A stretch of 64,000 nucleotides of DNA from Rhodococcus sp. OK519 (GTDB lineage: Bacteria > Actinomycetota > Actinomycetes > Mycobacteriales > Mycobacteriaceae), in the NCBI RefSeq assembly GCF_003051005.1, contig NZ_QAOW01000001.1:930001-994000 (forward strand), given 5' to 3'. Below the pieces are notes generated by a model. It did no database searches, was not told the origin of the DNA, and saw only the letters and a list, made by a program, of their open reading frames with translations. This document shows positions 14,219-18,344 of this stretch, piece after piece; the first letter of the stretch is position 1; each line of letters opens with the position of its first letter. Both the position numbers and the translations under genes were made by a program.

Positions 14219-15661
14219 GTGGACGCCATCGTGGATCTGGTCACCGACATCAACGACGCGTACTGGTACGCAGTGATCGCCCTCTTGGTCGGACTGGGCC
14301 TGTACTTCACGGTGCGGTCCCGGTTCGTCCAGATCCGCCTGCTGCCGGACATGCTCCGGTCGGTCACCGAACCGGCCGAGACGCTGCCCGACGGGCAGAA
14401 GGGGATCTCGGCGTTCCGTGCCTTCTCCATCTCGGCGGCGTCGCGGGTGGGCACCGGCAACATCGCCGGAGTCGCCATCGCGATCAGCGTCGGCGGCCCC
14501 GGCACGGTGTTCTGGATGTGGGTGATGGCGCTCATCGGCGCAGCCACCGCGTTCGTCGAGTCGACGCTCGCTCAGGTGTACAAGATCCGCGACAAGGACG
14601 GCGGGTTCCGCGGCGGTCCCGCCTACTACATGCTGCACGGACTCCGGCGCCGCTGGATGGGTGTGATTTTCGCCGTCATCATCACGGTCACCTACGGCTT
14701 CGTCTTCAATGCGGTGCAGACGAACTCGATCGTCGACGCCGTGTCGACCTCGGTCGGCGAGGAGTCCCGCGGACTGAGTGTCGTCGTCGGACTGGTCGTC
14801 GCGAGCCTCACCGCTGCCGTGATCTTCGGTGGCGTGCGCCGCATCTCGGCCGTGTCGCAGGTGATCGTCCCGGTGGTCGCCGGCGCCTACCTGGTCCTCG
14901 CGCTCGTTGTGGTGGCCTTGAACATCACACAGGTCCCCGACATGTTCCGCCTCATCGTGGAGAACGCATTCGGTATCCGTGAGATGGTCAGCGGTGGCTT
15001 CGCGGCAGCCTTCATGCAGGGCATTCGGCGCGGATTGTTCTCGAATGAGGCCGGTATGGGCTCGGCGCCGAACGCCGGCGCGACCGCTGCCGTGTCGCAT
15101 CCGGTCAAGCAGGGCCTGGTGCAGAGCCTGGGCGTCTACTTCGACACCCTGCTGGTCTGCACCGCAACGGCATTCATCATTCTTTTGTCGAACCCCGATT
15201 ACGGGACGAAGGCGGGTGCGTCGCTCACCCAGACCGCTCTCAGTGCGCAACTCGGTGGTTGGACTGTCCACTTCCTGACGTTCGCTATCTTCTTCCTCGC
15301 GTTCACCTCGGTGATCGGCAACTACTACTACGGCGAATCGAACATCGAGTTCATGACGAGCAGTCGTCGTGTGCTGCACGGATTCAGGGCGCTGGTGGTG
15401 GTGTGTGTGTTCGCCGGTGCCGTCGGATCGCTGCCCCTGATCTGGGCGTTGGCGGATCTTGTGATGGGTGTGATGGCCACCGTGAACCTGGCTGCCCTGC
15501 TCCCGCTGTCGGGTGTCGCCTTCCTGCTGTTCAACCACTACCGCCGCCAGCGGGCCGAAGGCAAGGACCCGACCTTCCACCGCGACGAGATCCCCGAGAT
15601 CTCGGGGATCCAGGTGTGGGACGAGGCGCGGGAGGATGGCAGGATCTCCACTCATGGCTGA
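14219..15661 (+). CDS. Sodium:amino acid (alanine/glycine) symporter, AGCS family
   Basis: Integral membrane protein of 480 residues with about ten hydrophobic spans. The family signature region SAASRVGTGNIAGVAIAISV is at about residues 73-92, and GLFSNEAGMGSAPNAGATA near residue 275 is also diagnostic. AGCS proteins take up alanine or glycine with Na+; the exact substrate here is not evident. The GTG at 14219 follows kdpE by 58 bp with no terminator seen, so some readthrough from the kdp operon is possible. Its last 8 bp overlap the osmC-like gene. Confidence 0.9.
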   Translation: MDAIVDLVTDINDAYWYAVIALLVGLGLYFTVRSRFVQIRLLPDMLRSVTEPAETLPDGQKGISAFRAFSISAASRVGTGNIAGVAIAISVGGPGTVFWMWVMALIGAATAFVESTLAQVYKIRDKDGGFRGGPAYYMLHGLRRRWMGVIFAVIITVTYGFVFNAVQTNSIVDAVSTSVGEESRGLSVVVGLVVASLTAAVIFGGVRRISAVSQVIVPVVAGAYLVLALVVVALNITQVPDMFRLIVENAFGIREMVSGGFAAAFMQGIRRGLFSNEAGMGSAPNAGATAAVSHPVKQGLVQSLGVYFDTLLVCTATAFIILLSNPDYGTKAGASLTQTALSAQLGGWTVHFLTFAIFFLAFTSVIGNYYYGESNIEFMTSSRRVLHGFRALVVVCVFAGAVGSLPLIWALADLVMGVMATVNLAALLPLSGVAFLLFNHYRRQRAEGKDPTFHRDEIPEISGIQVWDEAREDGRISTHG

Positions 15662-16088
15662 ACAGACTCCCGCCCCCGCGTCCACCGAACTCTGGGTGGA
15701 GCGCACCGGCACCCGCCTGTACACCGGCCGCAGCTCGCGCGGCGCCGAAGTCCTGATCGGATCGGAGTCGGTGGAGGGCGCTTTCACCCCTGGGGAGCTG
15801 CTCAAGATCGCGCTGGCCGCGTGCTCGGGCATGAGCTCGGACTTTCCGCTGTCGCGTCGTCTCGGTGACGACTACGACGCCACGATCCGGGTCTCGGGTG
15901 CGGCCGACCGCGAGAACGAGGTGTACCCGCAGCTCGACGAGGTCCTCGAACTCGACCTCAGTGAGCTCGACGCCGAGGCGCGCCAACGCCTGGTCGCCCT
16001 CGTCGAGCGCTCGATCGACAAGGTGTGCACCGTCGGCCGCACGCTCAAGGCCGGCGCGAAGGTGACGCTGACGATTACGGGGGAGTAG
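15654..16088 (+). CDS. OsmC-family protein
   Basis: Protein of 144 residues of the OsmC/Ohr superfamily. The segment FTPGELLKIALAACSGMSSD holds the first conserved cysteine, and the second is in SIDKVCTVGRTL; together they form the peroxide-reactive pair of this superfamily. It probably reduces organic hydroperoxides, but the sequence alone does not separate OsmC from Ohr or YhfA types. From memory, M. tuberculosis Rv2923c, in this position between fpg and acyP, is an OsmC-like protein, so this gene marks where the conserved block resumes. The start overlaps the symporter gene by 8 bp. Confidence 0.88.
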   Translation: MAEQTPAPASTELWVERTGTRLYTGRSSRGAEVLIGSESVEGAFTPGELLKIALAACSGMSSDFPLSRRLGDDYDATIRVSGAADRENEVYPQLDEVLELDLSELDAEARQRLVALVERSIDKVCTVGRTLKAGAKVTLTITGE

Positions 16089-16842
16089 ACCACCACCCCG
16101 CGCCTCTACGCCGCGCGGGGCCCTGCCCGATTGTGCGCGGGGATGGGTTTCCGCGCACGGGTCCAAACGAGCCTGGCGGTGTGAACCACGGTGGTGATCT
16201 TCGCCGATGGCTACTTGCCAGTGGGAGTGGTGGAGTAGTCGGTGGTGGTAGCGGCAGAGCAGTACCAGGTCGTCGAGGTCGGTGGGTCCGCCGTCGGCCC
16301 AATGTGTCACGTGGTGGCCTTCGCAGTGGGCGGGTGGTCTTCCGCAGCTGGGGAGGGCGCAGCCGTGGTCGCAGGCGAGTCGGCGTGCGGTGGCGATGCT
16401 CAGTGGCCCCATCCACGGCACGTGAGCGATGTCTTTGTCGCCGAACAGATCCGGTGGCGCAGTCGAGCAACACCTTCCGGCAGGGCCCTACGGCTTCGGG
16501 AGGCATCCCGTTCGGCGGCTTCTCGCAGAACCTCGCGATCAGCGCCGCATGGTCGCCAGAGACACGACCACGCTCGTACTCGGCGGCAATCTCGGGTTGC
16601 CGACCGAGTGCGCGTCCGAGGGCGAGAATCCGTGCGGCGGCAGGCACTTCCAGCAGAGTGTTCGATGCGAGCCACAGTTTCACGCTGCGGAACCCGAGGG
16701 TGTCGAACGAGACGGGCGGTTGGTCGATTTCGGCGACGGCGGCCACCCGCAGCGTTTCGAGGCGCTCGATTTCGCGGGAGAGGTCGAGGGTCGTCTGCAG
16801 CAGTTCCCGCTCGGGCAGGCGCCGCAGATCGCGGGCGTGCAC
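16075..16842 (-). pseudogene. Decayed 13E12/DUF222-HNH endonuclease gene
   Basis: Remains of a DUF222-HNH endonuclease (the 13E12 repeat family, abundant in Mycobacteriales). The N-terminal DUF222 part is read from 16842 to about 16450 (starts MHARDLRRLPERELLQ). The HNH part lies in another frame from about 16421 to 16200, with CDHGCALPSCGRPPAHCEGH and LVLLCRYHHRLLHHSHW intact. The family's proline-rich tail (PWFTPPGSFGP) returns to the first frame near 16195. So there are at least two frame changes, and a middle part of perhaps 150 residues is missing compared with the usual 400-500. Its end overlaps the convergent osmC-like gene. Confidence 0.75.
16096..16120. terminator. GC-rich hairpin after the OsmC-family gene
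   Basis: An 8-bp inverted repeat (CCCCGCGC at 16096-16103, GCGCGGGG at 16113-16120) with a 9-nt loop, placed 7 bp after the osmC-like stop codon. It is a probable terminator without a T-tract. Confidence 0.45.
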
Positions 16843-16902: not shown

Positions 16903-18177
16903 CTAGTGTTCGAGTCGATGGAGAACGTCGGCGGCCCCTGCAAGCCGTGGCCAATCGAGTGTTGCCCTCCGGTCGCGATACGCGTCTCCCATTAATTCGA
17001 GAAGGTGCTCTCGGGCGACTTGGGTCCGAACACCGCAGGCGACGTCGGTGATCTGAACACTGTCCAACGCAACCTCGGACTGTCCGATAACTGCGATCAG
17101 GTGATCTCTGGTTCTGCGGGCGTTCCGAATGCGTGCTCCCAGTGACCCGCCGTGGTCGACTCTGCTGCGAAGTCCCTGCCGGCGTGCTTCATTGGCGAAC
17201 GTGCGCGCCGCGGCATCCTGGTCTGCGGTGACCGGCAGGACAGTGACCTGGACCGGGGCCAACCAGAACGGCAAACGCCCCGTGTGGTGTTCGAGGAGCG
17301 CTGCAGTCACGCGCTCCATGGACCCGACAGCGCCTCGATGAATCATGACTGGTCGACATTCAGCGCCGTCGGAGTCGACGTAGGTGAGGTCGAATCGCTC
17401 GGGTTGATTGAAGTCGAGCTGTACGGTGGCGATGGTTTCCTCGTGACCGTGTCCGTCCCGAACTTGCAAATCGAACTTGGGGCCGTAGAACGCGGCCTCG
17501 CCCGGGGCCTCGAGCAGTTTCAGTCCATGCTCGTCGAGAACGGACCGCCCTGCCACACGAAGTTGCTCCTGGGCATGCTCCCACTGTGCCTCGGTTCCGA
17601 GCCACGCAGCGGAACTGTCTCGTATCGACAGCCGAACGTAGTCGACGGGCAGTCCCAGAATCTCCTGAGCACGCAGCGCAGCCCGCAACCCCAGCTCGGC
17701 TTCGTGCAGGACCTGGTCCGGGCGGCAGAAGACGTGAGTGTCGTCGAGGTTGATCTGCCGGACGCGACTCAATCCGGACAGAACCCCGGAACGTTCGGCC
17801 CGGAACATGGAGGCGAGCTCGTTGAATCGAAGTGGCAGCTCGCGATACGAGCGTTTGGTGGAGGCGTAGATCAAGGCGTGATGAGGGCAGTTCGCCGGCC
17901 GAAGCATGATGTCGTCATCGCCAATTCGCATGGCGGGGAACATGTCTTGGCTGAACTTGCTCAGATGTCCGGACCGCTCGTACAGCGCTCGTTTTCCGAG
18001 AACCGGCGAGAACACGCCTTGGCATCCATCGTCCGATGCCAGTTCCTTCGCCAGCTTTTGCAGCTCCTCCCGGACGATGGCACCGGCTGGTAGCCACATC
18101 GGAAGGCCGGATCCGGCAAGGGGATCGGTGGCGAAAATTGCCATGTCGTGGTTGAGATCTCGGTGGTCGGTGACCAT
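16903..18177 (-). CDS. Threonyl-tRNA synthetase paralogue lacking TGS and editing domains
   Basis: Class II aminoacyl-tRNA synthetase of 424 residues. The ATG at 18177 is chosen because AGGAG lies 8 bp upstream on this strand; an in-frame codon 42 bp earlier falls inside the leader terminator tail. It has the ThrRS catalytic core and an anticodon-binding domain (about residues 310-400). The usual N-terminal 200 or more residues (TGS and Ser-editing domains) are absent. The three zinc ligands are kept: Cys97 (RPANCPHH), His148 (NLDDTHVFC) and His280 (PVMIHRGAVGS). Motif 2 (FRAERSGVLSGL) and motif 3 (GSMERVTAALLEHHTGRLP) are present. It probably charges tRNA-Thr, or is a specialised or resistance form; a full-length ThrRS is expected elsewhere. 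A Thr-leader attenuator precedes it. Confidence 0.85.
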   Translation of the reverse strand: MVTDHRDLNHDMAIFATDPLAGSGLPMWLPAGAIVREELQKLAKELASDDGCQGVFSPVLGKRALYERSGHLSKFSQDMFPAMRIGDDDIMLRPANCPHHALIYASTKRSYRELPLRFNELASMFRAERSGVLSGLSRVRQINLDDTHVFCRPDQVLHEAELGLRAALRAQEILGLPVDYVRLSIRDSSAAWLGTEAQWEHAQEQLRVAGRSVLDEHGLKLLEAPGEAAFYGPKFDLQVRDGHGHEETIATVQLDFNQPERFDLTYVDSDGAECRPVMIHRGAVGSMERVTAALLEHHTGRLPFWLAPVQVTVLPVTADQDAAARTFANEARRQGLRSRVDHGGSLGARIRNARRTRDHLIAVIGQSEVALDSVQITDVACGVRTQVAREHLLELMGDAYRDRRATLDWPRLAGAADVLHRLEH

Positions 18178-18182
18178 GGTGT

Positions 18183-18210
18183 CTGCTCCTGTTGTTTCGT
18201 GTGGGAGCAG
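18183..18210 (-). promoter_or_regulatory. Hairpin that can mask the ribosome-binding site of the ThrRS paralogue
   Basis: On the transcript, CUGCUCC (18210-18204) can pair with GGAGCAG (18189-18183), which contains the AGGAG ribosome-binding site of the gene starting at 18177. The same CUGCUCC can instead pair with an identical GGAGCAG in the upstream terminator (18243-18237). Both pairings are 7 bp, so they are mutually exclusive. Confidence 0.5.
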
Positions 18211-18217
18211 TCGGGAC

Positions 18218-18249
18218 AAGAAGAAAGCCCCGGAATCTGCTCCGGGGCT
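18218..18249 (-). terminator. Intrinsic terminator (attenuator) in the ThrRS-paralogue leader
   Basis: Nine-bp GC-rich stem (transcript AGCCCCGGA, loop GCAGAU, UCCGGGGCU; plus-strand arms 18226-18234 and 18241-18249) followed by UUCUUCUU. It lies between the Thr-rich leader peptide stop (18268) and the synthetase start (18177), the position of a classical attenuator. Confidence 0.8.
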
Positions 18250-18267
18250 CGAGATGTCTGAGGGCTG

Positions 18268-18330
18268 TCAGTTCATCGTGAGGGCGCCGGCGGTGTCCGG
18301 CGTCGTCGTGGAATGTAGGAATCCCTGCAT
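18268..18330 (-). CDS. Threonine-rich leader peptide of the attenuator
   Basis: Twenty-codon ORF, ATG at 18330 and TGA at 18270-18268, encoding MQGFLHSTTTPDTAGALTMN. Five of 20 codons are Thr, three of them consecutive ACG codons (residues 8-10). It ends 18 nt before the terminator stem. No ribosome-binding site precedes it, but a TACACT element 8 nt upstream of the ATG suggests a leaderless transcript. The likely job is to sense charged tRNA-Thr by ribosome stalling. This is inference from layout; the ORF is too short to test by similarity. Confidence 0.65.
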   Translation of the reverse strand: MQGFLHSTTTPDTAGALTMN

Positions 18331-18338
18331 GGTGTCGG

Positions 18339-18344
18339 AGTGTA
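18339..18344 (-). promoter_or_regulatory. Candidate -10 element of a leaderless transcript
   Basis: TACACT on the minus strand, 8 nt before the leader-peptide ATG at 18330. This spacing would put the transcription start at the A of the ATG. I see no convincing -35 element. It lies in the 89-bp gap shared with the divergent SMP-30-like gene. Confidence 0.4.

Follow-up and report, generated by a model that had tools for sequence, protein, structure and literature searches.

In the thr operon leader of enterobacteria, the ribosome senses Thr codons, and the outcome follows a logic of alternative helices, 1:2, 2:3 and 3:4, which is the logic that we propose below for a locus of Rhodococcus sp. 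OK519. Unlike that locus, the enterobacterial leader contains Thr and Ile codons, has a Shine-Dalgarno site and precedes a biosynthetic operon. The auxiliary tryptophanyl-tRNA synthetase of Streptomyces is likewise subject to ribosome-mediated attenuation, through which a spare enzyme is induced by a shortage of the cognate charged tRNA. This system responds to tryptophan, and its role in indolmycin resistance has been shown.

In a 2005 survey of Actinobacteria (Seliverstov et al.; PMC1262725), classical attenuators were described before trpS and leuS in Streptomyces. These attenuators resemble the Rhodococcus locus in comprising a leader peptide, an antiterminator and a terminator before an aminoacyl-tRNA synthetase gene, but they concern other amino acids. 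For threonine operons, the same survey states that conservation of RNA structure was not seen in the upstream regions. According to the 2021 reannotation of S. lividans TK24, the leader ORF thrL (SLIV_19412), encoding MKRVRPFLETTPGFVPAR, precedes thrS (SLIV_19410) and is leaderless by RNA-seq (PMC8079986). Thus, S. lividans and Rhodococcus share a Thr-codon leader before a threonyl-tRNA synthetase gene on a leaderless transcript, the latter property being only predicted for Rhodococcus. As described in the available text (PMC8079986), the S. lividans leader has two Thr codons and one visible hairpin, with no U-rich stretch and no antiterminator given, and the authors call termination 'not clear'. 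By contrast, the Rhodococcus leader has three consecutive Thr codons and a U-rich tail; for this comparison, the S. lividans locus is known from the paper. A cluster of codons for one amino acid is also found in the short, cysteine-rich upstream ORFs that precede related genes in mycobacteria, described in a study of leaderless transcripts whose authors call the regulatory roles speculative (PMC4633059). Among open-licence papers, we found no printed account of the antiterminator, of the tie to an editing-less synthetase or of the phylum-wide spread of the leader described below.

The window locus and its relatives

The window, the whole stretch of DNA that was analysed, comprises 64,000 nucleotides of contig NZ_QAOW01000001.1 of Rhodococcus sp. 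OK519. The locus lies on its minus strand and has the following parts:

18339 to 18344, minus strand: −10 box TACACT, 8 bases 5' of the leader ATG, read in the sequence
18268 to 18330, minus strand: leader ORF encoding MQGFLHSTTTPDTAGALTMN in 20 codons, without a Shine-Dalgarno site; ATG at 18330, stop codon at 18270-18268
18301 to 18309, minus strand: Thr codons 8-10 (ACG ACG ACG), the presumed sensor; a Thr run is present in 60 of 60 loci
18285 to 18302, minus strand: hairpin 1:2, CGCCGG (18302-18297) with CCGGCG (18290-18285), immediately 3' of the Thr codons, from the fold
18242 to 18290, minus strand: antiterminator 2:3, from a stalled-state fold and pair counts on 33 leaders
18218 to 18250, minus strand: terminator 3:4 (18250-18241 with 18234-18225) and U-rich tail (18224-18218), from the fold and a separate scan
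18183 to 18210, minus strand: hairpin 5:6 covering the ribosome-binding site, CUGCUCC (18210-18204) with GGAGCAG (18189-18183), from the fold, a tendency common to the relatives
16903 to 18177, minus strand: thrS2, encoding a second threonyl-tRNA synthetase of 424 residues with catalytic and anticodon-binding domains only

The protein, ThrS2, scored above the NCBIfam thrS cut-off (399.2 versus 383.65 bits), and Pfam detected only a catalytic core and an anticodon-binding domain in its 424 residues. A full-length ThrRS is encoded in the same genome by an open frame of 687 codons and is 41% identical to ThrS2. Together, these data indicate that ThrS2 is the second ThrRS of this genome, a short one that lacks the N-terminal editing part. 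Its ATG occupies 18177-18175 and is preceded by AGGAG. An HNH endonuclease domain protein is encoded downstream of thrS2 (window 15531-16421, minus strand).

An earlier, sequence-only reading of this DNA had described the upstream region as a threonine attenuator, and its parts list proved accurate. The 20-codon ORF at 18330-18268 contains five Thr codons, three of them consecutive at codons 8-10. For the terminator with a U-rich tail placed between the leader ORF and the synthetase gene, sequence, fold and scan agree (18250-18218). More specifically, this terminator consists of GAGCCCCGGA-GCAGAU-UCCGGGGCUU followed by the U-rich tail, with a folding energy of −19.4 kcal/mol. As a whole, the 186-base leader folded better than 200 of 200 dinucleotide shuffles (z −4.35). 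In an Rfam search of the window, only tRNAs reached the thresholds; no family was found at the leader and there was no T-box match.

We inspected 60 distinct ThrS2 loci: a set of 39 comprising the window, L004-L030 and L085-L095, together with eleven whole-genome loci, nine loci from plasmid records and L185. Two further loci were not counted twice, namely L084 (G003), the counterpart of L004, and L147, whose leader is that of L019. ThrS2 was preceded at all 60 loci, which are not independent samples, by a short ORF of 15-21 codons with two to five consecutive Thr codons. Among the 39 leaders, the run comprised three Thr codons in 37 and two in L009 and L014. Conservation of Thr codons in orthologous leaders, which the sequence-only reading had suggested as a check, holds for the consecutive run and fails for the later Thr codons. 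A ThrS2 gene kept without a Thr leader had been named beforehand as the observation that would count against attenuation; none was present among the 60 loci.

A TANNNT box lay 6-8 bases 5' of the leader start codon at 60 of 60 loci, the box having been required in the search that covered the nine plasmid records and part of the whole-genome loci. The start codon was ambiguous in 11 of the 39 leaders, and the one with a TANNNT box was taken. Of the S. lividans genes transcribed without a leader, 93.4% have an identified TANNNT box (PMC8079986), and the internal his promoters of C. glutamicum have their −10 box 7 ± 1 bases 5' of the transcription start (PMC3896937). Given the position of the box, transcription is expected at or next to the leader start codon. 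In the window, the transcript is predicted to be leaderless, starting at or within about 2 bases of the leader ATG, and ThrS2 leaders in general are probably translated from leaderless transcripts.

The leader peptides are similar around TTTP and S/V-G/P-A in most loci, as would be expected if the leader worked as an arrest peptide and not through its Thr codons. However, this similarity follows the RNA pairing (ACG CCG GA .. TCC GGC GC), and divergent leaders retain the Thr run only, as in TTTTGAVPEV, TTTTTGLPP, TTTGSHP and TTTATEH. We therefore give the arrest-peptide explanation hardly any weight and retain the Thr codons as the presumed sensor. Loci L148, L150, L153 and L172 have Thr runs of three to five without the TTTP pattern and are natural variants with which the requirements of the sensor can be probed.

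To what extent the leader is specific to ThrS2 was assessed with a covariance model, R1, built from 33 leaders and run on 151 related genomes and 396 genomes from across the phylum, under filter settings at which some weak matches are missed. Within the related genomes, 14 of the matches listed scored at least 45 bits; they occurred in 13 ThrS2 genomes and in G009, and each was located by its coordinates just before a ThrS2 gene. In the phylum set, 8 of the 23 matches listed reached 45 bits, all 8 preceding ThrS2. The 15 weaker matches included three before ThrS2 and 12 without ThrS2 in the fetched flanks; the latter were mostly a G+C-rich hairpin, none with a ThrS2-type leader. Among the matches listed for the 151 and 396 genomes, none of at least 45 bits stood before any other gene. 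R1 found the leader in 11 of the 12 ThrS2 genomes of the phylum set, and that of the twelfth, G449, was found by reading. Two matches in one genus, L135 and L137, have ATG ACN ACN ACN close before a G+C-rich hairpin, with no TANNNT box and no synthetase, and are probably chance matches. In the window genome, which has its housekeeping thrS at about 341503 of G000:C5 (L145), the one strong R1 match was that of ThrS2; a second match, on another contig, scored 25 bits.

A pattern search of 392 genomes taken for Streptomyces found the C-terminal half of the S. lividans thrL peptide once, in G772. This locus, L185, encodes the thrL peptide letter for letter, 7 bases after TACCGT, followed by hairpin 1:2, a terminator-type hairpin and a ThrS2 that is 50% identical to the window protein. 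As the published thrL peptide here precedes ThrS2, the window element belongs to the S. lividans thrL family.

Alternative pairing of the leader transcript

Immediately after the Thr codons comes GCCGG (segment 1), whose pairing partner, CCGGC (segment 2), follows within a few bases. This helix, 1:2, was found in 39 of 39 leaders. Segment 2 (18290-18280), which lies just after the Thr codons, also pairs with segment 3, the 5' arm of the terminator. The statement in the sequence-only reading that there is no upstream antiterminator was therefore wrong: 18290-18284 pairs with 18248-18242, forming a core of CCGGcGC with GCcCCGG. In the window, the 2:3 pairs are CCGG (18290-18287/18245-18242), GC (18285-18284/18248-18247) and UC (18281-18280/18250-18249), and they enclose an inner hairpin (18277-18253) that contains the stop codon. 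Many relatives have UCCGG-C-GC with GC-C-CCGGA, where the window has CCGG-C-GC with GC-C-CCGG. A G+C-rich hairpin is present between leader and gene in 39 of 39 loci, with poor U-tracts in many relatives.

To model the stalled state, we placed a ribosome so that the last Thr codon occupied its A site, and folded the RNA between the leading edge of this ribosome and a point just past the 5' arm of the terminator. The fold ends before segment 4, so competition from 3:4 is excluded. Under this constraint, segment 2 paired with segment 3 in 39 of 39 leaders, with a best-paired base probability of 1.00; the window fold had an energy of −15.3 kcal/mol. At equilibrium, 3:4 wins over 2:3, and the switch between them depends on the order of synthesis. 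Without gaps, the best 2:3 helix comprises just four pairs in four of the 39 leaders, including the window, whose 2:3 is among the weakest. A ribosome at the stop codon, with a footprint assumed to extend 18 bases 5' and 13 bases 3' of the codon's first base, masks the segment 2 core fully in 30 of 39 leaders and partly in nine, the window among the latter, and overlaps segment 3 by at most 2 bases in all 39; these values are geometric. Near-identical leaders are included in all counts on 39 leaders, that is, those of helices, stalled states, ribosome footprints and the fixed 2:3 below, while six of them are excluded from the alignment of 33.

In a MAFFT alignment of the leaders, RNAalifold yielded only 9 pairs because spacing varies between leaders, and pair counts were therefore taken from the named structures. 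Across the 33 non-redundant leaders, 92.8% of the 2:3 cells were paired, as compared to 30.7-59.5% when the partner was slid by 1-3 columns. The proportion of 2:3 cells that are paired and the 2:3 covariation score both exceeded those of 500 of 500 shuffles. By contrast, the numbers of pairs with changes in both partners and of additional pair types were not above chance, being reached by 335 and 333 of the 500 shuffles, respectively, since the 2:3 core is for the most part invariant. Alignment columns 50 and 106 form U-A in 17 leaders, C-G in 10 and U-G in 2, and are unpaired in 4, including the window. In the terminator, column 106 takes part in A-U in 19 leaders, G-C in 10 and G-U in 2, and is unpaired in 2. 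Since this column pairs in both structures, changes in segments 2, 3 and 4 are coupled. Segment 1 is less closely coupled to them, columns 41 and 50 being unpaired in 13 of the 33 leaders.

Overall, the Thr-run leaders at 60 of 60 loci, an antiterminator with some co-varying pairs and the ribosome geometry support the threonine attenuator first proposed from the sequence. We read the window locus as a trp-type, ribosome-mediated transcription attenuator before ThrS2, with a probability of about 0.9 on the basis of sequence and modelling. An attenuator of this kind is classical and has already been reported in Streptomyces.

While the conserved parts, the pairing potential and the geometry are observed, the kinetics and the response to threonine are what we infer from here on. 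RNA polymerase would start at or next to the leader ATG, and a ribosome would load on the leaderless transcript. With ample charged tRNA-Thr, the ribosome would reach the stop codon and cover segment 2, 3:4 would form and transcription would end before thrS2. When charged tRNA-Thr is short, through threonine starvation or inhibition of the main ThrRS, the ribosome would wait at codons 8-10 and cover segment 1; segment 2 would then pair with segment 3, 3:4 would come too late and thrS2 would be transcribed. In the absence of translation, 1:2 would form and the terminator would stand.

What was a remark on thrL in a single species, S. lividans, is extended by these data to a family that was represented at all ThrS2 loci examined and has a defined, testable antiterminator. 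In the genomes searched, the leader is tied to one gene, the editing-less ThrS2, which predicts that this gene is induced by the loss of charged tRNA-Thr. The element could also serve as a handy Thr-tRNA reporter in Actinobacteria and would be a case of attenuation beginning on a leaderless transcript, as predicted.

The ribosome-binding-site hairpin

Three exact 7-mers had been noted in the window transcript, and all are present: GGAGCAG at 18243-18237, CUGCUCC at 18210-18204 and GGAGCAG at 18189-18183. From them, a transcription-translation switch had been proposed in which CUGCUCC pairs either with the terminator arm, which would cause antitermination and expose the ribosome-binding site, or with that site itself, which would block translation. 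The strength of helix 5:6 in the window (−12.1 kcal/mol, calculated with an artificial loop) is in keeping with this proposal, as are the 7-mers themselves. However, CUGCUCC is transcribed after the terminator, following the U-tract (18224-18218), and so has no part in the termination decision. Once transcription has read through, a forced pairing of CUGCUCC with the terminator arm (3:5) is 7.7 kcal/mol less favourable (−27.6 versus −35.3 kcal/mol). With 2:3 fixed, the ribosome-binding site became freer by at least 0.2 in none of the 39 leaders and was less free in four of them, and a proper antiterminator, 2:3, is present upstream. On these grounds of transcription order, energy cost and ribosome-binding-site pairing, the switch through CUGCUCC is not supported and we consider it very improbable. 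The trio is in part a by-product, because GGAG in the terminator arm and the Shine-Dalgarno sequence are each expected on other grounds. Pairing of segment 5 with the freed 3' arm of the terminator (segment 4), as a means of releasing the ribosome-binding site, was considered and dropped since the site was not freer; 4:5 pairing is predicted in many leaders, with a mean probability of 0.44.

Hairpin 5:6 might instead be a second layer of control, independent of the attenuator, in which a regulated block of translation is opened by an unseen factor. Consistent with such a layer, the ribosome-binding site pairs upstream with a probability above 0.5 in 33 of 38 loci, as against 1 gene in a small control set, which comprised 25 other genes of the window and L004-L030; L085, with no recognised Shine-Dalgarno site, is absent from these counts. 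Mean pairing of the site over 32 loci, the six near-identical leaders being excluded, was 0.678, as compared to 0.503 (sd 0.050) after dinucleotide shuffling of the spacers, and 0 of 60 shuffled sets reached the observed value. The hairpin is also retained with a changed Shine-Dalgarno site in L006 (CUUCG/CGAAG) and L021 (CUUCUC/GAGAAG). Against this, spacers swapped between species performed nearly as well (0.622, sd 0.039, highest 0.718), making species-specific co-variation weak, and only 10 of 38 loci reached p ≤ 0.1 singly against shuffles. In the window alone, the hairpin is not beyond chance, as 17% of 60 spacer shuffles paired the site at least as well. No signal for opening hairpin 5:6 was found. 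The results of the swapped spacers and of the single loci indicate that the loci share an anti-Shine-Dalgarno stretch rather than a helix with fine co-variation. We consider an independently regulated layer possible but unlikely; hairpin 5:6 is probably a damper that lowers basal translation, outside the 2:3/3:4 switch of the attenuator.

Distribution and possible role of ThrS2

The nearest named relative of the window protein is that of Prescottella agglutinans (89%; L004). Among the matches listed, a second, short ThrRS was present in at least 13 of the 151 related genomes, with a patchy distribution. In a fourteenth, G009, the ThrS2 copy is broken by frame shifts; this locus (L141; G009:C1:549300-552000) has the usual thrL leader, and the genome is rated 79% complete; the frame shifts may reflect decay or an assembly error. 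Across the phylum, ThrS2 was present in at least 12 of 396 genomes among the matches listed, as classed by identity and a short frame. In G102, G163 and G535, the match to a short ThrRS frame starts no more than 143 bases from the end of the contig; we regarded these frames as truncated housekeeping copies and left them out of the counts.

ThrS2 also occurred on records filed as plasmids, some of them chromosome-sized, from Mycobacterium intracellulare, Kitasatospora, Streptomyces, Embleya and others. Of 105 such records, 20 were listed, and 11 of the 20, at 48.0% identity or more, were taken for ThrS2. Nine of these 11 loci were read; H6, from the same species as H5, and H10, from the same species as H9, were left out. 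ThrS2 and the attenuator seem to travel together, also on the Streptomyces, Kitasatospora and Embleya records.

We infer that ThrS2 could be a back-up enzyme for threonine famine or for the presence of a ThrRS inhibitor, and is perhaps inhibitor-tolerant. The place that we take to correspond to Leu489 of E. coli ThrRS was located on the alignment by its motif in the E. coli sequence. This place is occupied by Gln in 49 of 59 ThrS2 rows, by Leu in 5, Lys in 4 and Met in 1, these rows including the duplicates L019/L147 and L122/L149 but not the window. In the full-length ThrRS rows, it is Leu in 25 of 36 and Gln in 4. According to a study of obafluorin, Leu489 lies within 7 Å of this inhibitor in the E. 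coli ThrRS pocket, and obafluorin-resistant ThrRS of the ObaO type carries Ser where the E. coli enzyme has Gly463 (PMC11252418). The ObaO-type Ser was absent: the Gly463 place is Gly in the window protein, in 59 of 59 ThrS2 rows and in 36 of 36 full-length ThrRS rows.

An editing-impaired ThrRS, T2, of a model prokaryote is described as mischarging with serine (PMC4787780). By analogy, this suggests that ThrS2, which has no editing domain, may mischarge some serine, and such mischarging could be a reason why thrS2 is kept off. More speculatively, and in our estimate rather improbably, ThrS2 would be a travelling inducible spare, with its promoter, leaderless attenuator and sequestered ribosome-binding site moving between chromosomes and plasmids as one module with two layers of control and allowing the host to survive ThrRS inhibitors at the price of error-prone charging.

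Plasmid NZ_CP012886.2 of Mycobacterium intracellulare subsp. chimaera (L176) carries a ThrS2 of 58.5% identity with a leader of its own, MLSAQQTTTPDYIRS. Among those plasmid records that come with a gene table, ThrS2 has different annotated neighbours from one record to the next.
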